A stretch of 64,000 nucleotides of DNA, taken from assembly GCA_001695595.3 (NCBI GenBank), contig MBPM02000116.1, positions 1-64,000 of the forward strand, in the 5' to 3' direction. Below, one piece after another: positions 1 through 57,085 of this stretch; positions within the stretch are counted from its first letter, which is position 1; each line of letters opens with the position of its first letter. A program made the translations under genes and the position numbers. This DNA is from Plasmopara viticola (lineage: Eukaryota; Oomycota; Peronosporomycetes; Peronosporales; Peronosporaceae). The notes under the pieces were generated by a model. It saw nothing but the letters and a program-made list of their open reading frames with translations, had not been told where the DNA came from and did no database searches.

Positions 1-106
1 TTATCACCGCTCTGTTTTCAAAGTTTACATTTTAGCAGCTACAAATACGAGCGGCATTTCCTTAGCTACAAAGGTCAGGCCCATACGTTTCGCTATATTC
101 ATATTC

Positions 107-127
107 ATGCGGTCGTTATGATCGCAT
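107..127. other. Conserved spacer hairpin (representative)
   Basis: Arms ATGCGGTC and GATCGCAT form 8 pairs (one G-U) around a GTTAT loop. The segment is present in practically all units, including diverged border units where substitutions keep pairing. Strand and function are unknown; it could be part of a small RNA, a DNA-level site, or hitchhiking sequence. Confidence 0.5.
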
Positions 128-189
128 ATGCTTGACACCAAAGACCTCTGATTACGGAAAATATCGAGGTTGGGCAATGCTTCGTAGAT

Positions 190-193
190 AAAA
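190..193 (-). terminator. Pol III T-run terminator (representative)
   Basis: Four T on the minus strand, about 41 nt beyond the tRNA 3' end at 235. No T4 run lies nearer. In other units the run is T4 or T5 within three spellings of the flank (GATAAAATAATTTT, GATAAAATATTTT, GATAAAAATATTTT), always keeping at least four. It is missing in the unit of the gene at 40,214 and in the relics at 55,223, 55,587 and 55,957. Confidence 0.6.
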
Positions 194-234
194 TAATTTT
201 CCAGCAGCTGTGACTTTTTGCAGCCTTCACAAAT

Positions 235-315
235 CGACAGCTGTGAGACTTGAACTCACGCGGGTTACCCCAATAGATTTCGAGTCTATCGCCTTAACCG
301 CTCGGCCAAGCTGTC
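235..315 (-). tRNA. trnS-CGA: tRNA-Ser(CGA), copy 1 (reference copy)
   Basis: 81 nt with discriminator G. Acceptor GACAGCU/AGCUGUC is fully paired; U8-G9; D-stem GCC/GGC with loop GAGCGGTTAA (invariant G18G19); anticodon stem ATAGA/TCTAT with loop CTCGAAA, anticodon CGA at 280-282; variable arm TGGG/CCCG; T-arm GTGAG/CTCAC with loop TTCAAGT. The internal A box (TGGCCGAGCGG) and B box are intact. No intron and no encoded CCA. It reads codon UCG. Copies called consensus below have this exact sequence. 386 bp to the next copy. Confidence 0.97.
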
Positions 316-331
316 TTAGCACTGAAGACAG
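311..331 (-). other. Leader hairpin overlapping tRNA 5' end (representative)
   Basis: CTGTCTT and AAGACAG are perfect 7-bp arms around a 7-nt loop. Five bases of one arm (311-315) are the first five bases of the mature tRNA, so in the precursor this hairpin competes with the acceptor stem. It recurs in nearly every unit. In the unit at 53,637 both arms changed (CTATCTT/AAGATAG) and pairing is kept. Confidence 0.6.
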
Positions 332-620
332 CACCTACACTGCATCAGCAAGTTGCTTTCAGTATGCCACGCTACCTAACACATTTATCACCGCTCTGTT
401 TTCAAAGTTTACTTTTTAGCAGCTACAAGTACGAGCGGCATCGTTCCTTAGCTTCAAAGGTCAGACCCATACGTTTCGCTGTATTCTATTCATGCGGTCG
501 TTATGATCGCATATGCTTGACACCAAAGACGTCTGATTACGGAAAATTATCGAGGTTGGGCAATGCTTCGTAGATAAAATAATTTTCCAGCAGATGTGAC
601 TTTTTGCAGCATTCACAAAT

Positions 621-701
621 CGACAGCTGTGAGACTTGAACTCACGCGGGTTACCCCAATAGATTTCGAGTCTATCGCCTTAACCGCTCGGCCAAGCTGT
701 C
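621..701 (-). tRNA. trnS-CGA: tRNA-Ser(CGA), copy 2
   Basis: Consensus; 397 bp to next copy. Confidence 0.95.
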
Positions 702-1017
702 TTAGCACTGAAGACAGCACCTACACTGCATCAGCAAGTTGCTTTCAGTATGCCACGCTACCTAACACATTTTTCTCCGCTGTGTTTTCAAATCAGTTTC
801 AAAGTTCACATTTTAGCAGCTACAAATACGAGCGGCATCGTTCCTTAGCTTCAAAGGTCAGGCCCATACGTTTCGCTATATTCATATTCATGCGGTCGTT
901 ATGATCGCATATGCTTGACACCAAAGACGTCTGATTACGGAAAATTATCGAGGTTGGGCAATGCTTCGTAGATAAAAATATTTTCCAGCAGATGTGACTT
1001 TTGCAGCATTCACAAAT

Positions 1018-1098
1018 CGACAGCTGTGAGACTTGAACTCACGCGGGTTACCCCAATAGATTTCGAGTCTATCGCCTTAACCGCTCGGCCAAGCTGTC
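1018..1098 (-). tRNA. trnS-CGA: tRNA-Ser(CGA), copy 3
   Basis: Consensus; 384 bp to next copy. Confidence 0.95.
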
Positions 1099-1401
1099 TT
1101 AGCACTGAAGACAGCACCTACACTGCATCAGCAAGTTGCTTTCAGTATGCCACGCTACCTAACACATTTATCACCGCTCTGTTTTAAAAGTTTACATTTT
1201 AGCAGCTACAAATACGAGCGGCATTTCCTTAGCTACAAAGGTCAGGCCCATACGTTTCGCTATATTCATATTCATGCGGTCGTTATGATCGCATATGCTT
1301 GACACCAAAGACGTCTGATTACGGAAAATTATCGAGGTTGGGCAATGCTTCGTAGATAAAATATTTTCCAGCAGATGTGACTTTTTGCAGCCTTCACAAA
1401 T

Positions 1402-1482
1402 CGACAGCTGTGAGACTTGAACTCACGCGGGTTACCCCAATAGATTTCGAGTCTATCGCCTTAACCGCTCGGCCAAGCTGTC
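1402..1482 (-). tRNA. trnS-CGA: tRNA-Ser(CGA), copy 4
   Basis: Consensus; 384 bp to next copy. Confidence 0.95.
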
Positions 1483-1785
1483 TTAGCACTGAAGACAGCA
1501 CCTACATTGCATCAGCAAGTTGCTTTCAGTATGCCACGCTACCTAACACATTTATCACCGCTCTGTTTTCAAAGTTACTTTTTAGCAGCTACAATACGAG
1601 CGGCATCGTTCCTTAGCTTCAAAGGTCAGGCCCATACGTTTCGCTATATTCATATTCATGCGGTCGTTATGATCGCATATGCTTGACACCAAAGACGTCT
1701 GATTACGGAAAATTATCGAGGTTGGGCAATGCTTCGTAGATAAAATAATTTTCCAGCAGATGTGACTTTTTGCAGCTTCACAAAT

Positions 1786-1866
1786 CGACAGCTGTGAGAC
1801 TTGAACTCACGCGGGTTACCCCAATAGATTTCGAGTCTATCGCCTTAACCGCTCGGCCAAGCTGTC
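1786..1866 (-). tRNA. trnS-CGA: tRNA-Ser(CGA), copy 5
   Basis: Consensus; 485 bp to next copy because the spacer holds a 99-bp duplication. Confidence 0.95.
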
Positions 1867-1914
1867 TTAGCACTGAAGACAGCACCTACATTGCATCAGC
1901 AAGTTGCTTTCAGT

Positions 1915-2112
1915 ATGCCATGCTACCTAACACATTTATCACCGCTCTGTTTTCAAAGTTTACATTTTAGCAGCTACAAATACGAGCGGCATCGTTCCTT
2001 AGCTTCAAAGGTCATGCCATGCTACCTAACACATTTATCACCGCTCTGTTTTAAAAGTTTACATTTTAGCAGCTACAAATACGAGCGGCATCGTTCCTTA
2101 GCTCAAAGGTCA
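1915..2112. repeat. 99-bp internal duplication in one array spacer
   Basis: The segment from ATGCCATGCTACC to CAAAGGTC occurs twice in tandem (starts 1,915 and 2,014), enlarging this unit to 485 bp. The junction sits at GTCATGCC, where the normal continuation is GTCAGGCC. Confidence 0.8.
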
Positions 2113-2270
2113 GGCCCATACGTTTCGCTATATTCATATTCATGCGGTCGTTATGATCGCATATGCTTGACACCAAAGACGTCTGATTACGGAAAATTAT
2201 CGAGGTTGGGCAATGCTTCGTAGATAAAATAATTTTCCAGCAGATGTGACTTTTTGCAGCATTCACAAAT

Positions 2271-2350
2271 CGACAGCTGTGAGACTTGAACTCACGCGGT
2301 TACCCCAATAGATTTCGAGTCTATCGCCTTAACCGCTCGGCCAAGCTGTC
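2271..2350 (-). tRNA. trnS-CGA: tRNA-Ser(CGA), copy 6, variable-arm deletion
   Basis: One base lost from the variable arm (CGCGGTTACC on +), otherwise consensus; 402 bp to next copy. Confidence 0.85.
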
Positions 2351-2672
2351 TTAGCACTGAAGACAGCACCTACACTGCATCAGCAAGTTGCTTTCAGTAT
2401 GCCACGCTACCTAACACATTTATCTCCGCTGTTTTCAAAGTTCACTCTGTGGTTTCAAAGTTCACATTTTAGCAGCTCAAATACGAGCGGCATCGTTCCT
2501 TAGCTTCAAAGGTCAGGCCCATACGTTTCGCTATATTCATATTCATGCGGTCGTTATGATCGCATATGCTTGACACCAAAGACGTCTGATTACGGAAAAT
2601 TATCGAGGTTGGGCAATGCTTCGTAGATAAAATAATTTTCCAGCAGATGTGACTTTTGCAGCATTCACAAAT

Positions 2673-2752
2673 CGACAGCTGTGAGACTTGAACTCACGCG
2701 GTTACCCCAATAGATTTCGAGTCTATCGCCTTAACCGCTCGGCCAAGCTGTC
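2673..2752 (-). tRNA. trnS-CGA: tRNA-Ser(CGA), copy 7, variable-arm deletion
   Basis: Same one-base loss as its left neighbour, so the lesion was copied locally; 383 bp to next copy. Confidence 0.85.
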
Positions 2753-3055
2753 TAAGCACTGAAGACAGCACCTACACTGCATCAGCAAGTTGCTTTCAGT
2801 ATGCCACGCTACCTAACACATTTATACCGCTCTGTTTTAAAAGTTTACATTTTAGCAGCTACAATACGAGCGGCATCGTTCCTTAGCTTCAAAGGTCAGG
2901 CCCATACGTTTCGCTATATTCATATTCATGCGGTCGTTATGATCGCATATGCTTGACACCAAAGACGTCTGATTACGGAAAATTATCGAGGTTGGGCAAT
3001 GCTTCGTAGATAAAATAATTTTCCAGCAGATGTGACTTTTGCAGCATTCACAAAT

Positions 3056-3136
3056 CGACAGCTGTGAGACTTGAACTCACGCGGGTTACCCCAATAGATT
3101 TCGAGTCTATCGCCTTAACCGCTCGGCCAAGCTGTC
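3056..3136 (-). tRNA. trnS-CGA: tRNA-Ser(CGA), copy 8
   Basis: Consensus; 387 bp to next copy. Confidence 0.95.
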
Positions 3137-3442
3137 TTAGCACTGAAGACAGCACCTACACTGCATCAGCAAGTTGCTTTCAGTATGCCACGCTACCTAA
3201 CACATTTATCACCGCTCTGTTTTCAAAGTTCACCGCTTTTAGCAGCTACAAATACGAGCGGCATCGTTCCTTAGCTTCAAAGGTCAGGCCCATACGTTTC
3301 GCTATATTCATATTCATGCGGTCGTTATGATCGCATATGCTTGACACCAAAGACGTCTGATTACGGAAAATTATCGAGGTTGGGCAATGCTTCGTAGATA
3401 AAATATTTTCCAGCAGATGTGACTTTTGCAGCATTCACAAAT

Positions 3443-3523
3443 CGACAGCTGTGAGACTTGAACTCACGCGGGTTACCCCAATAGATTTCGAGTCTATCGC
3501 CTTAACCGCTCGGCCAAGCTGTC
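3443..3523 (-). tRNA. trnS-CGA: tRNA-Ser(CGA), copy 9
   Basis: Consensus; 400 bp to next copy. Confidence 0.95.
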
Positions 3524-3842
3524 TTAGCACTGAAGACAGCACCTACATTGCATCAGCAAGTTGCTTACAGTATGCCATGCTACCTAACATGTTTATCTCC
3601 GCTGTGTTTTCAAAGTTCACCGCTTTCAAAGTTCACATTTTAGCAGCTCCAATACGAGCGGCATCGTTCCTTAGCTTCAAAGGTCAGGCCCATACGTTTC
3701 GCTATATTCATATTCATGCGGTCGTTATGATCGCATATGCTTGACACCAAAGACGTCTGATTACGGAAAATTATCGAGGTTGGGCAATGCTTCGTAGATA
3801 AAATAATTTTCCAGCAGATGTGACTTTTGCAGCTTCACAAAT

Positions 3843-3923
3843 CGACAGCTGTGAGACTTGAACTCACGCGGGTTACCCCAATAGATTTCGAGTCTATCGC
3901 CTTAACCGCTCGGCCAAGCTGTC
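3843..3923 (-). tRNA. trnS-CGA: tRNA-Ser(CGA), copy 10
   Basis: Consensus; 385 bp to next copy. Confidence 0.95.
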
Positions 3924-4227
3924 TTAGCACTGAAGACAGCACCTACACTGCATCAGCAAGTTGCTTTCAGTATGCCACGCTACCTAACACATTTATCACC
4001 GCTCTGTTTTAAAAGTTTACATTTTAGCAGCTACAAATACGAGCGGCATTTCCTTAGCTTCAAAGGTCAGGCCCATACGTTTCGCTATATTCATATTCAT
4101 GCGGTCGTTATGATCGCATATGCTTGACACCAAAGACGTCTGATTACGGAAAATTATCGAGGTTGGGCAATGCTTCGTAGATAAAATAATTTTCCAGCAG
4201 ATGTGACTTTTTGCAGCATTCACAAAT

Positions 4228-4308
4228 CGACAGCTGTGAGACTTGAACTCACGCGGGTTACCCCAATAGATTTCGAGTCTATCGCCTTAACCGCTCGGCC
4301 AAGCTGTC
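4228..4308 (-). tRNA. trnS-CGA: tRNA-Ser(CGA), copy 11
   Basis: Consensus; 403 bp to next copy. Confidence 0.95.
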
Positions 4309-4630
4309 TTAGCACTGAAGACAGCACCTACATTGCATCAGCAAGTTGCTTTCAGTATGCCATGCTACCTAACACTTTATCTCCGCTGTGTTTTCAAAGT
4401 TCACCGCTGTTTTCAAAGTTCACATTTTAGCAGCTCCAATACGAGCGGCATCGTTCCTTAGCTTCAAAGGTCAGGCCCATACGTTTCGCTATATTCATAT
4501 TCATGCGGTCGTTATGATCGCATATGCTTGACACCAAAGACGTCTGATTACGGAAAATTATCGAGGTTGGGCAATGCTTCGTAGATAAAATAATTTTCCA
4601 GCAGATGTGACTTTTGCAGCATTCACAAAT

Positions 4631-4711
4631 CGACAGCTGTGAGACTTGAACTCACGCGGGTTACCCCAATAGATTTCGAGTCTATCGCCTTAACCGCTCG
4701 GCCAAGCTGTC
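4631..4711 (-). tRNA. trnS-CGA: tRNA-Ser(CGA), copy 12
   Basis: Consensus; 386 bp to next copy. Confidence 0.95.
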
Positions 4712-5016
4712 TTAGCACTGAAGACAGCACCTACATTGCATCAGCAAGTTGCTTTCAGTATGCCATGCTACCTAACACATTTATCACCGCTCTGTTTTCA
4801 AAGTTCACATTTTAGCAGCTACAAATACGAGCGGCATCGTTCCTTAGCTTCAAAGGTCAGGCCCATACGTTTCGCTATATTCATATTCATGCGGTCGTTA
4901 TGATCGCATATGCTTGACACCAAAGACGTCTGATTACGGAAAATTATCGAGGTTGGGCAATGCTTCGTAGATAAAATAATTTTCCAGCAGATGTGACTTT
5001 TGCAGCATTCACAAAT

Positions 5017-5097
5017 CGACAGCTGTGAGACTTGAACTCACGCGGGTTACCCCAATAGATTTCGAGTCTATCGCCTTAACCGCTCGGCCAAGCTGTC
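5017..5097 (-). tRNA. trnS-CGA: tRNA-Ser(CGA), copy 13
   Basis: Consensus; 384 bp to next copy. Confidence 0.95.
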
Positions 5098-5400
5098 TTA
5101 GCACTGAAGACAGCACCTACACTGCATCAGCAAGTTGCTTTCAGTATGCCACGCTACCTAACACATTTATCACCGCTCTGTTTTAAAAGTTTACATTTTA
5201 GCAGCTACAAATACGAGCGGCATTTCCTTAGCTTCAAAGGTCAGGCCCATACGTTTCGCTATATTCATATTCATGCGGTCGTTATGATCGCATATGCTTG
5301 ACACCAAAGACGTCTGATTACGGAAAATTATCGAGGTTGGGCAATGCTTCGTAGATAAAATAATTTTCCAGCAGATGTGACTTTTGCAGCATTCACAAAT

Positions 5401-5481
5401 CGACAGCTGTGAGACTTGAACTCACGCGGGTTACCCCAATAGATTTCGAGTCTATCGCCTTAACCGCTCGGCCAAGCTGTC
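5401..5481 (-). tRNA. trnS-CGA: tRNA-Ser(CGA), copy 14
   Basis: Consensus; 384 bp to next copy. Confidence 0.95.
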
Positions 5482-5784
5482 TTAGCACTGAAGACAGCAC
5501 CTACACTGCATCAGCAAGTTGCTTTCAGTATGCCACGCTACCTAACACATTTATCACCGCTCTGTTTTCAAAGTTCATTTTAGCAGCTACAAATACGAGC
5601 GGCATCGTTCCTTAGCTTCAAAGGTCAGGCCCATACGTTTCGCTATATTCATATTCATGCGGTCGTTATGATCGCATATGCTTGACACCAAAGACGTCTG
5701 ATTACGGAAAATTATCGAGGTTGGGCAATGCTTCGTAGATAAAATAATTTTCCAGCAGATGTGACTTTTGCAGCATTCACAAAT

Positions 5785-5865
5785 CGACAGCTGTGAGACT
5801 TGAACTCACGCGGGTTACCCCAATAGATTTCGAGTCTATCGCCTTAACCGCTCGGCCAAGCTGTC
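5785..5865 (-). tRNA. trnS-CGA: tRNA-Ser(CGA), copy 15
   Basis: Consensus; 405 bp to next copy. Confidence 0.95.
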
Positions 5866-6189
5866 TTAGCACTGAAGACAGCACCTACATTGCATCAGCA
5901 AGTTGCTTTCAGTATGCCATGCTACCTAACACATTTATCTCCGCTGTGTTTTCAAAGTTCACCGCTGGGTTTTCAACTTCACATTTTAGCAGCTCAAATA
6001 CGAGCGGCATCGTTCCTTAGCTTCAAAGGTCAGGCCCATACGTTTCGCTATATTCATATTCATGCGGTCGTTATGATCGCATATGCTTGACACCAAAGAC
6101 GTCTGATTACGGAAAATTATCGAGGTTGGGCAATGCTTCGTAGATAAAATAATTTTCCAGCAGATGTGACTTTTGCAGCATTCACAAAT

Positions 6190-6270
6190 CGACAGCTGTG
6201 AGACTTGAACTCACGCGGGTTACCCCAATAGATTTCGAGTCTATCGCCTTAACCGCTCGGCCAAGCTGTC
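6190..6270 (-). tRNA. trnS-CGA: tRNA-Ser(CGA), copy 16
   Basis: Consensus; 385 bp to next copy. Confidence 0.95.
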
Positions 6271-6574
6271 TTAGCACTGAAGACAGCACCTACATTCCAT
6301 CAGCAAGTTGCTTTCAGTATGCCACGCTACCTAACACATTTATCACCGCTCTTTTTAAAAGTTTACATTTTAGCAGCTACAAATACGAGCGGCATCGTTC
6401 CTTAGCTTCAAAGGTCAGGCCCATACGTTTCGCTATATTCATATTCATGCGGTCGTTATGATCGCATATGCTTGACACCAAAGACGTCTGATTACGGAAA
6501 ATTATCGAGGTTGGGCAATGCTTCGTAGATAAAATAATTTTCCAGCAGATGTGACTTTTGCAGCATTCACAAAT

Positions 6575-6655
6575 CGACAGCTGTGAGACTTGAACTCACG
6601 CGGGTTACCCCAATAGATTTCGAGTCTATCGCCTTAACCGCTCGGCCAAGCTATC
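6575..6655 (-). tRNA. trnS-CGA: tRNA-Ser(CGA), copy 17, acceptor wobble
   Basis: Acceptor base 3 is U instead of C, giving a U3-G70 wobble; still foldable. 384 bp to next copy. Confidence 0.9.
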
Positions 6656-6958
6656 TTAGCACTGAAGACAGCACCTACACTGCATCAGCAAGTTGCTTTC
6701 AGTATGCCACGCTACCTAACACATTTATCACCGCTCTGTTTTCAAAGTTCACTTTTAGCAGCTACAATACGAGCGGCATCGTTCCTTAGCTTCAAAGGTC
6801 AGGCCCATACGTTTCGCTATATTCATATTCATGCGGTCGTTATGATCGCATATGCTTGACACCAAAGACGTCTGATTACGGAAAATTATCGAGGTTGGGC
6901 AATGCTTCGTAGATAAAAATATTTTCCAGCAGATGTGACTTTTTGCAGCTTCACAAAT

Positions 6959-7039
6959 CGACAGCTGTGAGACTTGAACTCACGCGGGTTACCCCAATAG
7001 ATTTCGAGTCTATCGCCTTAACCGCTCGGCCAAGCTGTC
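6959..7039 (-). tRNA. trnS-CGA: tRNA-Ser(CGA), copy 18
   Basis: Consensus; 403 bp to next copy. Confidence 0.95.
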
Positions 7040-7361
7040 TTAGCACTGAAGACAGCACCTACATTGCATCAGCAAGTTGCTTTCAGTATGCCATGCTACC
7101 TAACACATTTATCTCCGCTGTGTTTTCAAAGTTCACCGCTTTTTCAAAGTTCACATTTTAGCAGCTCAATACGAGCGGCATCGTTCCTTAGCTTCAAAGG
7201 TCAGGCCCATACGTTTCGCTATATTCATATTCATGCGGTCGTTATGATCGCATATGCTTGACACCAAAGACGTCTGATTACGGAAAATTATCGAGGTTGG
7301 GCAATGCTTCGTAGATAAAATAATTTTCCAGCAGATGTGACTTTTTGCAGCCTTCACAAAT

Positions 7362-7442
7362 CGACAGCTGTGAGACTTGAACTCACGCGGGTTACCCCAA
7401 TAGATTTCGAGTCTATCGCCTTAACCGCTCGGCCAAGCTGTC
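7362..7442 (-). tRNA. trnS-CGA: tRNA-Ser(CGA), copy 19
   Basis: Consensus; 385 bp to next copy. Confidence 0.95.
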
Positions 7443-7746
7443 TTAGCACTGAAGACAGCACCTACACTGCATCAGCAAGTTGCTTTCAGTATGCCACGCT
7501 ACCTAACACATTTATCACCGCTCTTTTTTAAAGTTTACTTTTAGCAGCTACAAATACGAGCGGCATCGTTCCTTAGCTTCAAAGGTCAGGCCCATACGTT
7601 TCGCTATATTCATATTCATGCGGTCGTTATGATCGCATATGCTTGACACCAAAGACGTCTGATTACGGAAAATTATCGAGGTTGGGCAATGCTTCGTAGA
7701 TAAAATAATTTTCCAGCAGATGTGACTTTTTGCAGCATTCACAAAT

Positions 7747-7827
7747 CGACAGCTGTGAGACTTGAACTCACGCGGGTTACCCCAATAGATTTCGAGTCTA
7801 TCGCCTTAACCGCTCGGCCAAGCTGTC
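7747..7827 (-). tRNA. trnS-CGA: tRNA-Ser(CGA), copy 20
   Basis: Consensus; 405 bp to next copy. Confidence 0.95.
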
Positions 7828-8151
7828 TTAGCACTGAAGACAGCACCTACATTGCATCAGCAAGTTGCTTTCAGTATGCCATGCTACCTAACACATTTAT
7901 CTCCGCTGTGTTTTCAAAGTTCACCGCTGGTTTCAAAGTTCACATTTTAGCAGCTCAAATACGAGCGGCATCGTTCCTTAGCTTCAAAGGTCAGGCCCAT
8001 ACGTTTCGCTATATTCATATTCATGCGGTCGTTATGATCGCATATGCTTGACACCAAAGACGTCTGATTACGGAAAATTATCGAGGTTGGGCAATGCTTC
8101 GTAGATAAAATAATTTTCCAGCAGATGTGACTTTTTGCAGCATTCACAAAT

Positions 8152-8232
8152 CGACAGCTGTGAGACTTGAACTCACGCGGGTTACCCCAATAGATTTCGA
8201 GTCTATCGCCTTAACCGCTCGGCCAAGCTGTC
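8152..8232 (-). tRNA. trnS-CGA: tRNA-Ser(CGA), copy 21
   Basis: Consensus; 385 bp to next copy. Confidence 0.95.
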
Positions 8233-8536
8233 TTAGCACTGAAGACAGCACCTAGATTGCATCAGCAAGTTGCTTTCAGTATGCCACTACCTAACACATT
8301 TATCACCGCTCTGTTTTCAAAGTTTACATTTTAGCAGCTACAAATACGAGCGGCATCGTTCCTTAGCTTCAAAGGTCAGGCCCATACGTTTCGCTATATT
8401 CATATTCATGCGGTCGTTATGATCGCATATGCTTGACACCAAAGACGTCTGATTACGGAAAATTATCGAGGTTGGGCAATGCTTCGTAGATAAAATAATT
8501 TTCCAGCAGATGTGACTTTTTGCAGCATTCACAAAT

Positions 8537-8617
8537 CGACAGCTGTGAGACTTGAACTCACGCGGGTTACCCCAATAGATTTCGAGTCTATCGCCTTAAC
8601 CGCTCGGCCAAGCTGTC
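8537..8617 (-). tRNA. trnS-CGA: tRNA-Ser(CGA), copy 22
   Basis: Consensus; 383 bp to next copy. Confidence 0.95.
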
Positions 8618-8919
8618 TTAGCACTGAAGACAGCACCTACACTGCATCAGCAAGTTGCTTTCAGTATGCCACGCTACCTAACACATTTATCACCGCTCTG
8701 TTTTCAAAGTTCACTTTTAGCAGCTACAAGTACGAGCGGCATTTCCTTAGCTTCAAAGGTCAGGCCCATACGTTTCGCTATATTCATATTCATGCGGTCG
8801 TTATGATCGCATATGCTTGACACCAAAGACGTCTGATTACGGAAAATTATCGAGGTTGGGCAATGCTTCGTAGATAAAATATTTTCCAGCAGATGTGACT
8901 TTTTGCAGCCTTCACAAAT

Positions 8920-9000
8920 CGACAGCTGTGAGACTTGAACTCACGCGGGTTACCCCAATAGATTTCGAGTCTATCGCCTTAACCGCTCGGCCAAGCTGTC
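8920..9000 (-). tRNA. trnS-CGA: tRNA-Ser(CGA), copy 23
   Basis: Consensus; 405 bp to next copy. Confidence 0.95.
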
Positions 9001-9324
9001 TTAGCACTGAAGACAGCACCTACATTGCATCAGCAAGTTGCTTTCAGTATGCCATGCTACGTAACACATTTATCTCCGCTGTGTTTTCAAAGTTCACCGC
9101 TGGTTTCAAAGTTCACATTTTAGCAGCTCAAATACGAGCGGCATCGTTCCTTAGCTTCAAAGGTCAGGCCCATACGTTTCGCTATATTCATATTCATGCG
9201 GTCGTTATGATCGCATATGCTTGACACCAAAGACGTCTGATTACGGAAAATTATCGAGGTTGGGCAATGCTTCGTAGATAAAATAATTTTCCAGCAGATG
9301 TGACTTTTTGCAGCATTCACAAAT

Positions 9325-9405
9325 CGACAGCTGTGAGACTTGAACTCACGCGGGTTACCCCAATAGATTTCGAGTCTATCGCCTTAACCGCTCGGCCAAG
9401 CTGTC
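9325..9405 (-). tRNA. trnS-CGA: tRNA-Ser(CGA), copy 24
   Basis: Consensus; 385 bp to next copy. Confidence 0.95.
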
Positions 9406-38589: not shown

Positions 38590-38614
38590 TTAGCACTGAA
38601 GACAGCACCTAGAT

Positions 38615-41040: not shown

Positions 41041-41100
41041 GCAATGCTTCGTAGATAAAATATTTTCCAGCAGATGTGACTTTTTGCAGCCTTCACAAAT

Positions 41101-47446: not shown

Positions 47447-47767
47447 TTAGCACTGAAGACAGCACCTACATTGCATCAGCAAGTTGCTTTCAGTATGCCA
47501 TGCTACCTAACACATTTATCTCCGCTGTGTTTTCAAAGTTCACCGCTTTTCAAGTTCACATTTTAGCAGCTCAAATACGAGCGGCATCGTTCCTTAGCTT
47601 CAAAGGTCAGGCCCATACGTTTCGCTATATTCATATTCATGCGGTCGTTATGATCGCATATGCTTGACACCAAAGACGTCTGATTACGGAAAATTATCGA
47701 GGTTGGGCAATGCTTCGTAGATAAAAATATTTTCCAGCAGATGTGACTTCTTGCAGCATTCACAAAT

Positions 47768-47848
47768 CGACAGCTGTGAGACTTGAACTCACGCGGGTTA
47801 CCCCAATAGATTTCGAGTCTATCGCCTTAACCGCTCGGCCAAGCTGTC
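47768..47848 (-). tRNA. trnS-CGA: tRNA-Ser(CGA), copy 118
   Basis: Consensus; 385 bp to next copy. Confidence 0.95.
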
Positions 47849-48152
47849 TTAGCACTGAAGACAGCACCTACACTGCATCAGCAAGTTGCTTTCAGTATGC
47901 CACGCTACCTAACACATTTATCTCCGCTGTGTTGTCAAAGTTCACTTTTTAGCAGCTATAAATACGAGCGGCATCGAGCCTTAGCTTCAAAGGTCAGGCC
48001 CATACGTTTCGCTATATTCATATTCATGCGGTCGTTATGATCGAATATGCTTGACACCAAAGACGTCTGATTACGGAAAATTATCGAGGTTGGGCAATGC
48101 TTCGTAGATAAAATATTTTCCAGCAGATGTGACTTTTGCAGCATTCACAAAT

Positions 48153-48233
48153 CGACAGCTGTGAGACTTGAACTCACGCGGGTTACCCCAATAGATTTCG
48201 AGTCTATCGCCTTAACCGCTCGGCCAAGCTGTC
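48153..48233 (-). tRNA. trnS-CGA: tRNA-Ser(CGA), copy 119
   Basis: Consensus; 384 bp to next copy. Confidence 0.95.
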
Positions 48234-48536
48234 TTAGCACTGAAGACAGCACCTACATGCATCAGCAAGTTGCTTTCAGTATGCCACGCTACCTAACACA
48301 TTTATCACCGCTCTGTTTTTATAGGTTTACATTTTAGCAGCTACAAATACGAGCGGCATTTCCTTAGCTACAAAGGTCAGGCCCATACGTTTCGCTATAT
48401 TCATATTCATGCGGTCGTTATGATCGCATATGCTTGACACCAAAGACGTCTGATTACGGAAAATTATCGAGGTTGGGCAATGCTTCGTAGATAAAATAAT
48501 TTTCCAGCAGATGTGACTTTTGCAGCATTCACAAAT

Positions 48537-48617
48537 CGACAGCTGTGAGACTTGAACTCACGCGGGTTATTCCAATAGATTTCGAGTCTATCGCCTTAAC
48601 AGCTCGGCCAAGCTGTC
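48537..48617 (-). tRNA. trnS-CGA: tRNA-Ser(CGA), copy 120, D-loop G18U plus variable-arm changes
   Basis: The only subfamily-sub copy outside block B, and its leader spacer is also block B type (TGAGCAAGTTGCTTACAG). Two further changes weaken the variable arm (TATTCCA for TACCCCA on +). It looks like a unit moved from block B. 391 bp to next copy. Confidence 0.7.
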
Positions 48618-48927
48618 TTAGCACTGTAGACAGCACCTACATTGCATGAGCAAGTTGCTTACAGTATGCCATGCTACCTAACACATTTATCTCCGCTGTG
48701 TTTTCAAAGTTCAGTTTACATTTTAGCAGCTACAAATACGAGCGGCATCGTTCCTTAGCTTCAAAGGTCAGGCCCATACGTTTCGCTGTATTCATATTCA
48801 TGCGGTCGTTATGATCGCATATGCTTGACACCAAAGACGTCTGATTACGGAAAATTATCGAGGTTGGGCAATGCTTCGTAGATAAAATAATTTTCCAGCA
48901 GATGTGACTTTTGCAGCATTCACAAAT

Positions 48928-49008
48928 CGACAGCTGTGAGACTTGAACTCACGCGGGTTACCCCAATAGATTTCGAGTCTATCGCCTTAACCGCTCGGCC
49001 AAGCTGTC
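48928..49008 (-). tRNA. trnS-CGA: tRNA-Ser(CGA), copy 121
   Basis: Consensus; 384 bp to next copy. Confidence 0.95.
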
Positions 49009-49311
49009 TTAGCACTGAAGACAGCACCTACACTGCATCAGCAAGTTGCTTTCAGTATGCCACGCTACCTAACACATTTATCACCGCTCAGTTTTCAAAG
49101 TTTACATTTTAGCAGCTACAAATACGAGCGGCATTTCCTTAGCTTCAAAGGTCAGACCCATACGTTTCGCTGTATTCTATTCATGCGGTCGTTATGACCG
49201 CAAATGCTTGACACCAAAGACGTCTGATTACGGAAAATTATCGAGGTTGGGCAATGCTTCGTAGATAAAATAATTTTCCAGCAGATGTGACTGTTTGCAG
49301 CATTCACAAAT

Positions 49312-49392
49312 CGACAGCTGTGAGACTTGAACTCACGCGGGTTACCCCAATAGATTTCGAGTCTATCGCCTTAACCGCTCGGCCAAGCTGTC
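49312..49392 (-). tRNA. trnS-CGA: tRNA-Ser(CGA), copy 122
   Basis: Consensus; 403 bp to next copy. Confidence 0.95.
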
Positions 49393-49714
49393 TTAGCACT
49401 GAAGACAGCACCTACATTGCATCAGCAAGTTGCTTTCAGTATGCCATGCTACCTAACACATTTATCTCCGCTGTGTTTTCAAAGTTCACCGCTTTTCAAA
49501 GTTCACATTTTAGCAGCTCCAAATACGAGCGGCATCGTTCCTTAGCTTCAAAGGTCAGGCCCATACGTTTCGCTATATTCATATTCATGCGGTCGTTATG
49601 ATCGCATATGCTTGACACCAAAGACGTCTGATTACGGAAAATTATCGAGGTTGGGCAATGCTTCGTAGATAAAATAATTTTCCAGCAGATGTGACTTTTG
49701 CAGCATTCACAAAT

Positions 49715-49795
49715 CGACAGCTGTGAGACTTGAACTCACGCGGGTTACCCCAATAGATTTCGAGTCTATCGCCTTAACCGCTCGGCCAAGCTGTC
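49715..49795 (-). tRNA. trnS-CGA: tRNA-Ser(CGA), copy 123
   Basis: Consensus; 404 bp to next copy. Confidence 0.95.
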
Positions 49796-50118
49796 TTAGC
49801 ACTGAAGACAGCACCTACATTGCATCAGCAAGTTGCTTTCAGTATGCCATGCTACCTAACACATTTATCTCCGCTGTGTTTTCAAAGTTCACCGCTGTTT
49901 TCAAAGTTCACATTTTAGCAGCTCAAATACGAGCGGCATCGTTCCTTAGCTTCAAAGGTCAGGCCCATACGTTTCGCTATATTCATATTCATGCGGTCGT
50001 TATGATCGCATATGCTTGACACCAAAGACGTCTGATTACGGAAAATTATCGAGGTTGGGCAATGCTTCGTAGATAAAATAATTTTCCAGCAGATGTGACT
50101 TTTGCAGCATTCACAAAT

Positions 50119-50199
50119 CGACAGCTGTGAGACTTGAACTCACGCGGGTTACCCCAATAGATTTCGAGTCTATCGCCTTAACCGCTCGGCCAAGCTGTC
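50119..50199 (-). tRNA. trnS-CGA: tRNA-Ser(CGA), copy 124
   Basis: Consensus; 387 bp to next copy. Confidence 0.95.
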
Positions 50200-50505
50200 T
50201 TAGCACTGAAGACAGCACCTACACTGCATCAGCAAGTTGCTTTCAGTATGCCACGCTACCTAACACATTTATCACCGCTCTGTTTTCAAAGTTCACTTTT
50301 TAGCAGCTACAAGTACGAGCGGCATCGTTCCTTAGCTTCAAAGGTCAGGCCCATACGTTTCGCTATATTCATATTCATGCGGTCGTTATGATCGCATATG
50401 CTTGACACCAAAGACGTCTGATTACGGAAAATTATCGAGGTTGGGCAATGCTTCGTAGATAAAAATATTTTCCAGCAGATGTGACTTCTTGCAGCATTCA
50501 CAAAT

Positions 50506-50585
50506 CGACAGCTGTGAGACTTGAACTCACGCGGTTACCCCAATAGATTTCGAGTCTATCGCCTTAACCGCTCGGCCAAGCTGTC
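50506..50585 (-). tRNA. trnS-CGA: tRNA-Ser(CGA), copy 125, variable-arm deletion
   Basis: Same one-base variable-arm loss as copies 6 and 7, about 48 kb away; 385 bp to next copy. Confidence 0.85.
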
Positions 50586-50890
50586 TTAGCACTGAAGATA
50601 GCACCTACATTGCATCAGCAAGTTGCTTTCAGTATGCCATGCTACCTAACACATTTATCACCGCTCTGTTTTCAAAGTTCACTTTTTAGCAGCTACAAGT
50701 ACGAGCGGCATCGTTCCTTAGCTTCAAAGGTCAGGCCCATACGTTTCGCTATATTCATATTCATGCGGTCGTTATGATCGCATATGCTTGACACCAAAGA
50801 CGTCTGATTACGGAAAATTATCGAGGTTGGGCAATGCTTCGTAGATAAAATAATTTTCCAGCAGATGTGACTTTTGCAGCATTCACAAAT

Positions 50891-50971
50891 CGACAGCTGT
50901 GAGACTTGAACTCACGCGGGTTACCCCAATAGATTTCGAGTCTATCGCCTTAACCGCTCGGCCAAGCTGTC
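50891..50971 (-). tRNA. trnS-CGA: tRNA-Ser(CGA), copy 126
   Basis: Consensus; 385 bp to next copy. Confidence 0.95.
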
Positions 50972-51275
50972 TTAGCACTGAAGACAGCACCTACACTGCA
51001 TCAGCAAGTTGCTTTCAGTATGCCACGCTACCTAACACATTTATCACCGCTCTGTTTTCAAAGTTCACATTTTAGCAGCTACAAATACGAACGGCATTGT
51101 TCCTTAGCTTCAAAGGTCAGGCCCATACGTTTCGCTATATTCATATTCATGCGGTCGTTATGATCGCATATGCTTGACACCAAAGACGTCTGATTACGGA
51201 AAATTATCGAGGTTGGGCAATGCTTCGTAGATAAAATATTTTCCAGCAGATGTGACTTTTGCAGCATTCACAAAT

Positions 51276-51356
51276 CGACAGCTGTGAGACTTGAACTCAC
51301 GCGGGTTACCCCAATAAATTTCGAGTCTATCGCCTTAACCGCTCGGCCAAGCTGTC
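51276..51356 (-). tRNA. trnS-CGA: tRNA-Ser(CGA), copy 127, anticodon-stem wobble
   Basis: One substitution gives a G-U pair in the anticodon stem (TTTAT for TCTAT); 385 bp to next copy. Confidence 0.9.
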
Positions 51357-51660
51357 TTAGCACTGAAGACAGCACCTACACTGCATCAGCAAGTTGCTTT
51401 CAGTATGCCACGCTACCTAACACATTTATCACCGCTCTGTTTTAAAAGTTTACATTTTAGCAGCTACAAATACGAGCGGCATTTCCTTAGCTACAAAGGT
51501 CAGGCCCATACGTTTCGCTATATTCATATTCATGCGGTCGTTATGATCGCATATGCTTGACACCAAAGACGTCTGATTACGGAAAATTATCGAGGTTGGG
51601 CAATGCTTCGTAGATAAAATAATTTTCCAGCAGATGTGACTGTTTGCAGCATTCACAAAT

Positions 51661-51741
51661 CGACAGCTGTGAGACTTGAACTCACGCGGGTTACCCCAAT
51701 AGATTTCGAGTCTATCGCCTTAACCGCTCGGCCAAGCTGTC
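51661..51741 (-). tRNA. trnS-CGA: tRNA-Ser(CGA), copy 128
   Basis: Consensus; 388 bp to next copy. Confidence 0.95.
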
Positions 51742-52048
51742 TTAGCACTGAAGACAGCACCTACATTGCATCAGCAAGTTGCTTTCAGTATGCCATGCTA
51801 CCTAACACATTTATCACCGCTGTGTTTTCAAAAGTTTACATTTTAGCAGCTACAAATACGAGCGGCATCGTTCCTTAGCTTCAAAGGTCAGGCCCATACG
51901 TTTCGCTATATTCATATTCATGCGGTCGTTATGATCGCATATGCTTGACACCAAAGACGTCTGATTACGGAAAATTATCGAGGTTGGGCAATGCTTCGTA
52001 GATAAAATAATTTTCCAGCAGATGTGACTGTTTGCAGCATTCACAAAT

Positions 52049-52129
52049 CGACAGCTGTGAGACTTGAACTCACGCGGGTTACCCCAATAGATTTCGAGTC
52101 TATCGCCTTAACCGCTCGGCCAAGCTGTC
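52049..52129 (-). tRNA. trnS-CGA: tRNA-Ser(CGA), copy 129
   Basis: Consensus; 408 bp to next copy. Confidence 0.95.
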
Positions 52130-52456
52130 TTAGCACTGAAGACAGCACCTACATTGCATCAGCAAGTTGCTTTCAGTATGCCATGCTACCTAACACATTT
52201 ATCTCCGCTGTGTTTTCAAAGTTCACCGCTGGGTTTTCAAAGTTCACATTTTAGCAGCTCCAAATACGAGCGGCATCGTTCCTTAGCTTCAAAGGTCAGG
52301 CCCATACGTTTCGCTATATTCATATTCATGCGGTCGTTATGATCGCATATGCTTGACACCAAAGACGTCTGATTACGGAAAATTATCGAGGTTGGGCAAT
52401 GCTTCGTAGATAAAATAATTTTCCAGCAGATGTGACTGTTTGCAGCATTCACAAAT

Positions 52457-52537
52457 CGACAGCTGTGAGACTTGAACTCACGCGGGTTACCCCAATAGAT
52501 TTCGAGTCTATCGCCTTAACCGCTCGGCCAAGCTGTC
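52457..52537 (-). tRNA. trnS-CGA: tRNA-Ser(CGA), copy 130
   Basis: Consensus; 387 bp to next copy. Confidence 0.95.
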
Positions 52538-52843
52538 TTAGCACTGAAGACAGCACCTACACTGCATCAGCAAGTTGCTTTCAGTATGCCACGCTACCTA
52601 ACACAGTTATCACCGCTCTGCTTTCAAAACTCACTTTTTAGCAGCTACAAGTACGAGCGGCATCGTTCCTTAGCTTCAAAGGTCAGGCCCATACGTTTCG
52701 CTATATTCATATTCATGCGGTCGTTATGATCGCATATGCTTGACACCAAAGACGTCTGATTACGGAAAATTATCGAGGTTGGGCAATGCTTCGTAGATAA
52801 AATAATTTTCCAGCAGATGTGACTGTTTGCAGCATTCACAAAT

Positions 52844-52924
52844 CGACAGCTGTGAGACTTGAACTCACGCGGGTTACCCCAATAGATTTCGAGTCTATCG
52901 CCTTAACCGCTCGGCCAAGCTGTC
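52844..52924 (-). tRNA. trnS-CGA: tRNA-Ser(CGA), copy 131
   Basis: Consensus; 408 bp to next copy. Confidence 0.95.
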
Positions 52925-53251
52925 TTAGCACTGAAGATAGCACCTAGATTGCATGAGCAAGTTGCTTACAGTATGCCATGCTACCTAACACGTTTATCTC
53001 CGCTGTGTTTTCAATTTTCACCGCTGGGTTTTCAAAGTTCACATTTTAGCAGCTCCAAATTCGAGCGGCATCGTTCCTTAGCTTCAAAGGTCAGGCCCGT
53101 ACGTTTCGCTATATTCATATTCATGCGGTCGTTATGATCGCATATGCTTGACACCAAAGACGTCTGATTACGGAAAATTATCGAGGTTGGGCAATGCTTC
53201 GTAGATAAAATAATTTTCCAGCAGATGTGACTTTTTGCAGCATTCACAAAT

Positions 53252-53332
53252 CGACAGCTGTGAGACTTGAACTCACGCGGGTTACCCCAATAGATTTCGA
53301 GTCTATCGCCTTAACCGCTCGGCCAAGCTGTC
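53252..53332 (-). tRNA. trnS-CGA: tRNA-Ser(CGA), copy 132
   Basis: Consensus, the last one toward the border; 385 bp to next copy. Confidence 0.95.
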
Positions 53333-53636
53333 TTAGCACTGAAGACAGCACCTACACTGCATCAGCAAGTTGCTTTCAGTATGCCACGCTACCTAACACA
53401 TTTATCACCGCTCTGTTTTCAAAGTTTACATTTTAGCAGCTACAAATACGAGCGGCATTTCCTTAGCTACAAAGGTCAGGCCCATACGTTTCGCTATATT
53501 CATATTCATGCGGTCGTTATGATCGCATATGCTTGACACCAAAGACGTCTGATTACGGAAAATTATCGAGGTTGGGCAATGCTTCGTAGATAAAAATATT
53601 TTCTAGCAGATGTGACTTTTTGCAGCATTCATAAAT

Positions 53637-53717
53637 CGACAGCTGTGAGACTTGAACTCACGCGGGTTACCCCGATAGATTTCGAGTCTATCGCCTTAAC
53701 CGCTCGGTCAAGCTATC
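53637..53717 (-). tRNA. trnS-CGA: tRNA-Ser(CGA), copy 133, weakened D-stem
   Basis: G10 became A, breaking a D-stem pair and the A box; acceptor base 3 and base 44 are also changed. Anticodon CGA is intact. Possibly inactive. 408 bp to next copy. Confidence 0.65.
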
Positions 53718-54044
53718 TTAGCACTGAAGATAGCACCTACATTGCATCAGCAAGTTGCTTTCAGTATGCCATGCTACCTAACACGTTTATCTCCGCTGTG
53801 TTTTCAAAGTTCACCGCGGTGTTTTCAAAGTTCACATTTTAGCAGCTCCATATACGAGCAGCATCGTTCCTTGGCTTTAAAGGTCAGGCCCATACGTTTC
53901 GCTATATTCATATTCATGCGGTCGTTATGATCGCATATGCTTGACATCAAAGACGTCTGATTACGGAAAATTATCGAGGTTGGGCAATGCTTCGTAGATA
54001 AAAATATTTTCCAGCAGATGTGACTTTTTGCAGCCTTCACAAAT

Positions 54045-54125
54045 CGTCAGCTGTGGGACTTGAACTCACGCGGGTTACCCCAATAGATTTCAAGTCTATC
54101 GCCTTAACCGCTCGGCCAAGCTGTC
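54045..54125 (-). pseudogene. tRNA-Ser-like copy 134 with UGA anticodon
   Basis: The anticodon (54,090-54,092) reads UGA, still a serine anticodon (codon UCA). Acceptor pair 2 is broken (A-A) and one T-stem pair is lost, so it is probably a pseudogene rather than a working isoacceptor. 387 bp to next copy. Confidence 0.6.
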
Positions 54126-54431
54126 TTAGCACTGAAGACAGCACCTACACTGCATCAGCAAGTTGCTTTCAGTATGCCACGCTACCTAACACATTTATCA
54201 CCGCTCTGTTTTCAAAGTTTACATTTTAGCAGCTACAAATACGAGCGGCATCGTTCCTTAGCTACAAAGGTCAGGCCCATACGTTTCGCTATATTCATAT
54301 TCATGCGGTCGTTATGATCGCATATGCTTGACACCAAAGACGTCTGATTACGGAAAATTATCGAGGTTGGGCAATGCTTCGTAGATAAAAATATTTTCCA
54401 GCAGATGTGACTGTTTGCAGCATTCACAAAT

Positions 54432-54512
54432 CGACAGCTGTGAGACTTGAACTCACGCGGGTTACCCCAATAGATATCGAGTCTATCGCCTAAACCGCTC
54501 GGCCAAGCTATC
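54432..54512 (-). tRNA. trnS-CGA: tRNA-Ser(CGA), copy 135, loop changes
   Basis: Base 37 is U instead of A next to the CGA anticodon, one D-loop base is changed, and there is the U3-G70 wobble. It may be degenerate. 407 bp to the first clear relic. Confidence 0.6.
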
Positions 54513-54838
54513 TTAGCACTGAAGACAGCACCTACATTGCATCAGCAAGTTGCTTTCAGTATGCCATGCTACCTAACACATTTATCACCGCTGTGTTTTC
54601 AAAGTTCTCCGCTGGGTTTTCAAAGCTCACATTTTAGCAGCTATAAATACGAGCAGCATCGTTCTTTGGCTTCAAAGGTCAGGCCCATACGTTTCGCATA
54701 TTTATATTAATGCGGTCGTTATGATCGCATATGCTTGACACAAAAGACGTCTGATTACAGAAAATTATCGAGATTAAGCAATTCTTTGTAAATAAAAGTA
54801 ATTTCCACCTGATGTGACTTTTTGCAGCCTTCACAAAT

Positions 54839-54918
54839 CGACAGCTTTGAGACTTGAACTCACGCGGGTTTCTCCAACAGAATCGAGTCTATCGCCTTAA
54901 CCGCTCGGCCAAGCTGTC
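54839..54918 (-). pseudogene. tRNA-Ser relic 136
   Basis: Anticodon CGA remains, but one base is deleted in the anticodon arm and the variable arm and acceptor-T junction are altered, so the anticodon stem no longer pairs properly. Confidence 0.7.
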
Positions 54919-55222
54919 TAAGCACTTAGATCAGCACCTACATTTCATCAGCAAGTTGCTTACAGCATGCCACGCTACCTAACAAATTTATCACGGCTGT
55001 GTTTTCAAACTTCACTTTCTAGTAGGTCCAAATTGGAGCAGCATCGTTCCTCAGTTTCGAAGCTTCAGCAAAAACAATTTTGCTGTATTGATAGTTGTGC
55101 GGTCGTTATGGTTGCATCAGCTTGACACTAAAGTCGGTTGAGTACTGATCAATATCGAGGTGGGGCAATGCTTCGTAGATAAACATATTTCCAGCAGGTG
55201 CGACTTTTGCAGCCTTACAAAT

Positions 55223-55303
55223 TAAAAGCAGTGAGACTTGAACTTACGCGGATCACCCCAATAAATTTCGAGCTTTTCTCCTGAACCGCACGGCCAACCC
55301 GTC
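55223..55303 (-). pseudogene. tRNA-Ser relic 137
   Basis: Alignable over all 81 positions with many substitutions. The acceptor 3' strand has become TGCTTTT, the anticodon stem is largely unpaired, and the T4 terminator is reduced to three T. Confidence 0.75.
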
Positions 55304-55586
55304 TTAGCACTGTAGACACCACCTACATTGCATCAGCAACTTGCTTAGACTATGCCACATTTATCACCGCTGTGTTTTCAAACTTCAGTTTCCAGCTGCA
55401 TCAAATACGAGCAGCATCGTTCCTTATTTTCAAAGGTCAGGCTCATCCGTTTCGCTGTATTTATATTCATGCGGTCGTGATGGTCGCATCAGCTTGACAC
55501 CAAAGTCGTTTATTACTGAACAATATCGAGATTGGGCAATGCATCGAAGATAAAGATATTCTAGCAGGTGCGACTTATTTACAAAT

Positions 55587-55667
55587 TAAAAGCAGTGAGA
55601 CTTGAACTTACGCGGATCACCCCAATAAATTTCGAGCTTTTCTCCTGAACCGCACGGCCAAGCTGTC
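55587..55667 (-). pseudogene. tRNA-Ser relic 138
   Basis: Shares the private changes of relic 137 (GATCACC, CTTTTCTCCTGAACCGCACGG on +); terminator also lost. Confidence 0.75.
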
Positions 55668-55956
55668 TTAGAACTGTAGACACCACCTACATTGCATCAG
55701 CAACTTGCTTAGACTATGCCACATTTATCACCGCTGTGTTTTCAAACTTCAGTTTCCAGCTGCATCAAATACGAGCAGCATCGTTCCTTATTTTCAAAGG
55801 TCAGGCTCATCCGTTTCGCTGTATTTATATTCATGCGGTCGTGATGGTCGCATCAGCTTGACACCAAAGTCGTTTATTACTGAACAATATCGAGGTTGGG
55901 CAATGCATCGAAGATAAAGATATTCTAGCAGGTGCGACTTTTGCAGCTTTACAAAT

Positions 55957-56037
55957 TAAAAGCAGTGAGACTTGAACTTACGCGGATCACCCCAATAAAT
56001 TTCGAACTTTTCTCCTGAACCGCACGGCCAAGCTGTC
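55957..56037 (-). pseudogene. tRNA-Ser relic 139
   Basis: Third member of the relic triplet with one further change beside the anticodon; terminator lost. Confidence 0.75.
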
Positions 56038-56325
56038 TTAGCACTGTAGACACCACCTACATTGCATCAGCAACTTGCTTACACTATGCCACATTTATCA
56101 CCGCTGTGTTTCAAACTTCACTTTCCAGCTGCATCAAATACGAGCAGCATCGTTCCTTATTTTCAAAGGTCAGGCCCATCCGTTTCGCTGTATTTATATT
56201 CGTGCGGTCGTGATGGTCGCATCAGCTTGACACCAAAGTCGTTTATTACTGAACAATATCGAGGTTGGGCAATGCATCGAAGATAAAAATATTCCAGCAG
56301 GTGCGACTTTTGCAGCCTTACAAAC

Positions 56326-56406
56326 TCAAAGCTGTGAGTCATAAATTCACGCGAATCACCCCAATAGATTTCGAGTCTACCGCCTTAACCGCTCGGCCAA
56401 GCTGTC
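56326..56406 (-). pseudogene. tRNA-Ser relic 140
   Basis: The anticodon arm, D-arm and A box still match the consensus, but the T-loop (and with it the B box) and the acceptor 3' strand are mutated. Confidence 0.7.
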
Positions 56407-56724
56407 TTAGCACTGAAGACACCACCCACATTGCGTCAGCAAGTTGCTTACAGTATGCCACGCTACCTAACACATTTATCACCGCTGTGTTTTCAAAGCC
56501 CACCGCTGTGTTTTCAATGTTCACTTTCTAGCAGCTCCAAATACGAGCAGCATCGTTCCTTCGGCTTCAAAGGTCAGGCCCATCCGTTTCGCTGTGTTTA
56601 TATTCATGCGGTCGTGGTGGTCGCATCAGCTTGACACCAAAGTCGTTTGATTACTGGAGGTTGTGCAATCCTTCGAAGGTAAAAAATTCTCTAGCAGGTG
56701 CGACTTTTTGCAGCCTTTACGAAA

Positions 56725-56805
56725 CGACAGCTGTGAGACTTGAACTCACGCGGGTTGCCCCAATTGATTTTGGGTCTATCGCCTGAACCGCTCGGCCAAT
56801 CTGTC
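56725..56805 (-). pseudogene. tRNA-Ser relic 141, anticodon CAA
   Basis: The anticodon triplet (56,770-56,772) now reads CAA, formally leucine, but U33 is lost and the anticodon stem is broken. The T-arm and most of the acceptor are intact. Confidence 0.7.
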
Positions 56806-57003
56806 TTAGCACTGAAGATAGTACCTACATTGCGTCAGCAAGTTGTTTACAGTATACCCATACGCTTTGCTGTATACGTATTTGTGCGATCGTTTTGGTC
56901 GCATCAGATGGACACTAAAATCGTTTTATGCCGAGGGGTGTCAATGCTTCGTAGATAAAAAAATATCAATCAGCAGGTGCGATATTTTGCAGCCTCCACA
57001 CAT

Positions 57004-57085
57004 CGACAGCTGTGAAACCTTAACTCACATAGGTTACCCCAATAGATATCAATTTTATCGCCTTTACAGTCATTGTCGACAGCTT
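57004..57085 (-). pseudogene. tRNA-Ser relic 142 (last recognisable copy)
   Basis: The acceptor 3' strand and parts of the T- and variable arms are visible; the anticodon and D-arms are degraded. The left-hand end is approximate. Confidence 0.55.

Follow-up and report, generated by a model that had tools for sequence, protein, structure and literature searches.

The first 64,000 nucleotides of contig MBPM02000116.1 in the Plasmopara viticola genome assembly GCA_001695595.3 (C116:1-64000, hereinafter the window; the entire contig C116 comprises 177,285 b) are dominated by a tandem array of genes for the serine tRNA with the anticodon CGA. The array (1..57085, minus strand) is open on the left, where base 1 of the window is also base 1 of the contig, that is, an assembly end. 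ARAGORN identifies 137 tRNA-like genes in the window, none of them on the plus strand. Of these, 134 are Ser(CGA), the one at 54045 is Ser(TGA), the one at 54839 has an undetermined anticodon, and a decayed unit at 56725 is read as Leu(CAA). In an Rfam cmscan search, 137 tRNA matches likewise exceed the gathering score, and 108 of these score 60.3-60.4 bits; the two sets differ in that Rfam includes a match at 56326 and lacks the one at 54839, both of which are decayed edge units. The 81-nt tRNA sequence is identical in 105 of the 137 copies (a representative intact gene, recognized by both ARAGORN and Rfam, is 235..315 on the minus strand). A first-pass annotation of this DNA had reported at least 135 tandem minus-strand tRNA-Ser(CGA) genes, about 105 of them identical over 81 nt, in an array with an open left edge, and the recount bears this description out.

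The units follow each other head-to-tail on a single strand, and each unit of the homogeneous core (1..53350, minus strand; 128 aligned units starting below 53.5 kb) contains a single copy of the same tRNA. The spacing of the units in the window is mostly 382-429 bp, and the steps in unit length, near 384, 405 and 426, accompany a 21-bp spacer repeat (e.g., 22768..22833, no strand assigned), which would produce these lengths if present in 1 to 3 copies. Units near 426 bp predominate at about 14-36 kb. Three spacings are longer, namely 485, 519 and 501 bp after the tRNAs at 1786, 38509 and 40600, respectively, and the 485-bp one contains a partial duplication of the unit with a 99-bp period (1915..2116, 2.1 copies, no strand assigned). 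Degenerate units appear from 53.6 kb onward, and the array reaches about 57.1 kb; this decaying edge (53637..57085, minus strand) consists of mutated and then degenerate units, including those with the Ser(TGA), Leu(CAA) and unclear anticodons.

The units combine a tRNA fold, the CGA anticodon and RNA polymerase III (Pol III) signals, and are accordingly predicted to be functional tRNA-Ser(CGA) genes. The internal Pol III A and B boxes are present, the B box being intact in 128/128 core units and the A box in 108/128; these boxes do not discriminate between tRNA genes and short interspersed elements (SINEs), both of which have them. When the lone RNA is folded without constraints, its minimum-energy structure contains the acceptor, anticodon and T stems, with the standard D stem missing. 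A leader hairpin overlapping the 5' end of the tRNA was considered and dropped, given that folding of the leader, tRNA and trailer together is without significance (z -1.23). In 136/137 copies, a distance of 37-41 nt separates the tRNA from the first downstream run of at least four T. Such a distant Pol III terminator could be taken for the sign of a dead gene, an interpretation that we reject because the position of this run varies among the other tRNA genes inspected: it is distant in Met, Gln(TTG), Val and Ser(AGA), absent within 80 nt in Lys, and near in Ile and in one of the two Ser(TGA) copies. A protein-coding unit is rejected as well: the longest stop-to-stop frame of the consensus has 111 codons and passes through the tRNA, and a search among 5.8 billion proteins gives three candidates, none of them a hit at E <= 0.001; no Pfam domain is found either. 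Similarly, a second RNA in the spacer is rejected, as an Rfam search of 814 bases, with E allowed up to 1, finds the tRNA only; the tRNA stretch also has sub-threshold antisense matches to Plastid-ycf2 (28.2 bits, with the cut-off at 65.7).

Searches of the assembly (92,937,831 bases in 358 contigs) with a 41-nt core of the tRNA identify 512 exact matches (221 forward, 291 reverse), 126 of these in the window; the reversed pattern, used as a control, has 0 matches, and chance origin of the matches is excluded. Pieces of the array are located on contigs C116, C122, C235, C268 and C299, with one additional match on C39, according to a variant pattern with 51 matches, all of which are listed. The array meets contig ends on the left of C116, C122 and C268 and on both sides of C235. 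The right edge of the array in the window, together with the unique flank, is present in a second copy on C268 (6134 bp at 99.4%), and C299 matches a part of C122 in reverse orientation over its first 2549 bp (99.6%). From these alignments, C268 and C299 look like second-haplotype copies of C116 and C122, and the presence of both haplotypes in the assembly is the simplest reading; alternatively, these may be second copies within the genome. With both haplotypes assembled, the haploid number of copies would be below 512. Pairs of identically scoring kinase matches (C54/C137, C103/C169 and C116:133504/C205:39606) suggest that both haplotypes are kept at several places. The units switch strands on C268, C122 and C299, and thus, the array includes inversions. 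Apart from the main array on C122, the region C122:104001-120000 (L072, L103) contains diverged Ser units, mostly on the opposite strand and about 84-88% identical to the window array, six of which are still recognized by ARAGORN as Ser(CGA).

Two generic Ser patterns designed to exclude the array detect 0 and 0 matches to another Ser(CGA) gene. Among the matches listed, a single Ser(CGA) place with one mismatch precedes C116. It is located on C46 (L001, C46:274676-277716, around 1476-1543), where a solitary, 3'-truncated tRNA copy, identical over 68 bp, receives no tRNA call; by eye, its leader segment between GTCTT and AAGAC is inverted relative to the array. On C39 (L031, C39:670813-673840; tRNA at locus positions 1437-1517), a mutated piece of a Ser(CGA) unit is embedded in retrotransposon-like sequence, presumably an element of the Copia type, judging by eye. 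Given that the generic patterns match nothing and that the copies found outside are defective, the genome seems to have no intact UCG-decoding tRNA genes other than those of the array.

Variation among the units was analyzed in an alignment of 131 of the 137 tRNA-ended units (excluded were the first one, whose spacer is incomplete, the three with long spacings and two at the edge), and the core statistics come from the 128 units defined above. The copies are near-identical, and their variants are grouped or located near the edge. All but one of the aligned units are distinct (130/131), and 91/131 are distinct on 29 common substitution columns. The mean distance between neighbors (lag 1) is 0.0176 compared to 0.0261 for shuffled units, with 0.0228 as the lowest value in 2000 shuffles, and the distance reaches 0.0335 at lag 60. 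One G of the D-loop GG, within the A box, is lost in 20/128 core units, ten with a G to T replacement and ten with a missing base, and 19 of these 20 fall within 38 consecutive units, forming a lesion block at 20571..35810 on the minus strand (19 of the 37 units of 20.5-36 kb); 0/10000 permutations match this clustering. We take the affected GG to be positions 18/19, required for the tRNA fold; the two forms of the lesion may represent one true change combined with sequencing error. At the right edge, the divergence of six units from the consensus is alike for the tRNA (13.1%) and the mid spacer (14.3%), as would be expected of units rotting as pseudogenes. We do not claim that purifying selection acts more strongly on the tRNA than on the spacer: such a difference is seen only in 4 diverged C122 units (tRNA 3.7%, spacer 10.4%), and lower divergence of the tRNA is absent in the core, in the six C116 edge units and in 13 further C122 stretches.

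These observations are best compatible, with a probability that we put at about 80%, with the array being the organism's own set of UCG-decoding tRNA genes, amplified and homogenized by unequal recombination, rather than a dispersed SINE. Both the growth and the uniformity of the array would result from exchange between neighboring units, through either unequal crossing-over or gene conversion, so that copies in the middle are homogenized, defective ones included, while those at the edge escape this process and decay. The similarity of neighbors, the lesion block and the decay of the edge units jointly fit this scheme of a homogenized middle and decaying edges. Copies in surplus over the translational need would probably be near-neutral, and perhaps only a part of the array is active.

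Several points weigh against this explanation. Crossing-over is deduced from the pattern of variation, and the distance between units does not rise steadily with the lag but drops back to 0.0203 at lag 100, which we take to mean that the two outer parts of the array are alike and the middle (about 14-36 kb) is different. Across the core units, the tRNA does not exceed the mid spacer, i.e., consensus positions 141-240, in uniformity (0.0028 vs 0.0020 minor states per site, respectively), and therefore, selection on individual tRNA copies is not readable from the core. For the uniform block 141-240, we find no homologous frame, RNA family or protein domain that would account for it. The remainder of the spacer, 241-380, is far more variable (0.094 minor states per site); a part of this excess probably stems from the alignment of the 21-bp repeats, and the non-repeat stretch 336-380 likewise has high-frequency variants. 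The distinctness of the units may be inflated by sequencing errors beyond polishing. Finally, the search for Ser(CGA) genes outside the array employed generic patterns only, with 2-mismatch places not listed, and a diverged Ser(CGA) gene elsewhere could escape it.

The array is striking, yet ordinary for its clade, a new example of a known oomycete pattern. The first-pass annotation regarded an array of such size as unusual, which is wrong for this group, considering the 271 tandem Cys(GCA) genes in 513-nt units of Phytophthora infestans (PMC9584435) and the 570 tandem copies of a 717-bp unit in Peronospora effusa (PMC11540230). In P. infestans, about 64% of the tRNA genes belong to single-gene arrays, which share with the P. 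viticola array the head-to-tail arrangement of single-tRNA units a few hundred bp long, the near-identity of copies, their number in the hundreds, and the grouping of variants, often near one edge; the P. infestans example consists of Cys(GCA) genes instead of Ser(CGA) (PMC9584435). The tRNAs of P. viticola were counted in the same work from an older assembly, GCA_001974925.1, and the array described here does not appear in the passages covered (PMC9584435). In P. effusa, each isolate has 33-39 clusters of 10-970 nearly identical units, termed SINE-like by the authors, with inversions and with size differences between isolates that are ascribed to non-allelic homologous recombination (PMC11540230). 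Clustering of nearly identical units, recent-expansion subgroups and inversions are common to P. effusa, in which the clusters are location-specific, and the present array, whereas the 570-copy example differs in its tRNA (Arg), in the 717-bp unit and in the presence of open reading frames, some possibly encoding a signal peptide and an RXLR motif (PMC11540230); the longest frame here, with its 111 codons, has no homologue or domain found. No paper describing the array was found by title or abstract start, in a search that left most subscription journals outside, and the covered parts of the P. viticola genome paper of Dussert et al. 2019 mention tRNA once, in another context (PMC6660063).

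Among more distant systems, the arrays of Entamoeba, an unrelated lineage, are similar in that nearly all tRNA genes are arrayed, the spacers contain short tandem repeats and no link is stated between codon use and gene number, and differ in having up to 5 tRNA genes per unit and 25 array types; E. equi possesses a one-gene His unit, so multi-gene units are not a strict hallmark of Entamoeba (PMC2652664). The core units of the P. viticola array contain one tRNA each rather than several different tRNA genes. The Ser-Tyr-Tyr cluster of Arabidopsis reportedly has three genes per unit. It resembles the present array as a tandem, serine-containing, duplication-grown set of tRNA genes, and differs in that Ser and Tyr genes occur together, are silenced in most tissues and are called redundant (PMC12308677). 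Unlike this redundant cluster, the P. viticola array has no dispersed intact Ser(CGA) counterpart that we could find.

To the right of the array, the window contains a fragment of an NPRL2-like (Nitrogen permease regulator 2) gene (57963..58223, plus strand, PF06218) and a gene for a HECT E3 ubiquitin ligase (59268..61664, minus strand), a single open frame of 798 aa. The best named relative of the HECT protein comes from Plasmopara halstedii and shares 90% identity with it; the protein also contains a weak match to the RanBP2-type zinc finger (22.9 bits, below the cut-off of 27).

Other tRNA families of P. viticola are arrayed too, namely Lys(TTT), Thr(TGT) and Val(AAC)/Ser(AGA). Lys(TTT) has 123 exact matches, with C27, C140, C147 and C233 represented among those listed, and Thr(TGT) has 281 matches at <=1 mismatch, with C16 and C47 among those listed. 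The pattern for Ser(AGA) has 71 exact matches on C203, C211 and C288 (hand count), and in the C203 loci (L063-L067), this gene and Val(AAC) alternate, forming a dimer about 854 bp long. Ser(TGA) is present in 2 copies on C20. A generic Ser(GCT) pattern has 0 matches at <=1 mismatch; it probably misfits that tRNA, and nothing is concluded from this result. In the Thr(TGT) array on C16 (L075, C16:19001-22000), the units are about 314 bp long, and 4 of the nine tRNAs inspected combine an anticodon loop that is one base short with a change in the D arm; these are interleaved with intact units.

Among the alternatives, the least improbable, although still very unlikely, is that the units are SINE-like elements, i.e., tRNA-derived copy-and-paste repeats rather than tRNA genes, the class that was proposed for the P. 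effusa clusters on the argument of rapid expansion (PMC11540230). The solitary pieces outside the arrays, on C46 and C39, are in line with this possibility, but both are devoid of most of the spacer. The distribution of the spacer itself does not reveal dispersed copies: a 44-mer has 518 exact matches genome-wide, and among those listed (in contig order, starting from C116), none is on C1-C115, a result that pertains to exact copies, as no search was made for diverged scattered ones. In addition, no intact Ser(CGA) genes were found other than the array copies, and the Val(AAC)/Ser(AGA) dimer on C203 parallels, in its gene pair and nearly in its unit length, the P. infestans dimer array of about 850 nt (PMC9584435). 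Visual inspection of the unit consensus shows no apparent A-rich tail. The apparent uniqueness of the array as the source of intact UCG decoders, the confinement of the listed spacer matches and the Phytophthora-like dimer, taken together, favor the gene interpretation.

The possibility that hundreds of copies are maintained by selection, in order to supply UCG-reading tRNA, comes next and is highly improbable. In a small sample of 20 kinase-gene domains (the top-ranked of 136 matches, with two apparent duplicates and one stop-containing frame skipped), UCG is the commonest serine codon (87/272), and there may be a need for many Ser(CGA) copies. In the same sample, however, UCU, UCC and UCA together account for 88 codons, a ratio of about 1:1, whereas the matches to Ser(CGA) and Ser(AGA) number 512 and 71, respectively, or about 7:1, and proportionality between copy number and codon use is not supported. 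In the flanking HECT gene, AGC leads (16/65) and UCG accounts for 12/65; furthermore, the D-loop/A-box lesion in 20 of the 128 core units is not what maintenance by selection would predict. The correlation of gene number with codon use in P. infestans reaches R = 0.41 only, and its Ser and Pro families with the greatest expansion correspond to infrequent codons (PMC9584435). Of the three roles that the first-pass annotation had offered for the array, neutral amplification through unequal crossing-over is the one that gains the best support, with the mechanism itself deduced, and simple UCG dosage finds none in these counts.

Even less credence is given to the remaining one of these roles, a tRNA-derived satellite with a chromosomal function (TFIIIC binding, boundary or nuclear organization), a thought floated, in its chromatin aspect, by the P. 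infestans authors (PMC9584435). None of the 128 core units has a damaged B box, compared to 20 with a damaged A box, as such a function would predict, but this is a weak argument: with 8/80 tRNA columns variable, we estimate that an 11-base B box would be clean by chance in about 1/3 of the cases. Moreover, the tRNA and the spacer decay alike in the edge units. Equally doubtful is a scenario in which the locus would be shifting from an essential tRNA gene family to a Pol III/TFIIIC satellite, with the B-box sites selected and the tRNA failing in a spreading block. An assembly artefact that inflated a few copies to hundreds is the least credible of all, notwithstanding the contig ends at which the array stops on C116, C122, C235 and C268 and the apparent retention of both haplotypes, which makes 512 something other than a haploid count, because nearly all units are distinct, the majority of them by shared substitutions, C268 has the same edge and flank, and in P. 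infestans, read depth matched the assembly counts for representative tRNA families (PMC9584435).

The reading of the array as amplified and homogenized tRNA genes touches on a dispute over the nature of the tRNA arrays of oomycetes, which are viewed as genes in the Phytophthora paper and as SINE-like elements in the Peronospora paper. To this dispute, the P. viticola locus adds evidence that the Ser(CGA) array is a gene set and no SINE. The D-loop lesion block, in turn, would represent a natural record of homogenization spreading defective copies within an essential gene family.

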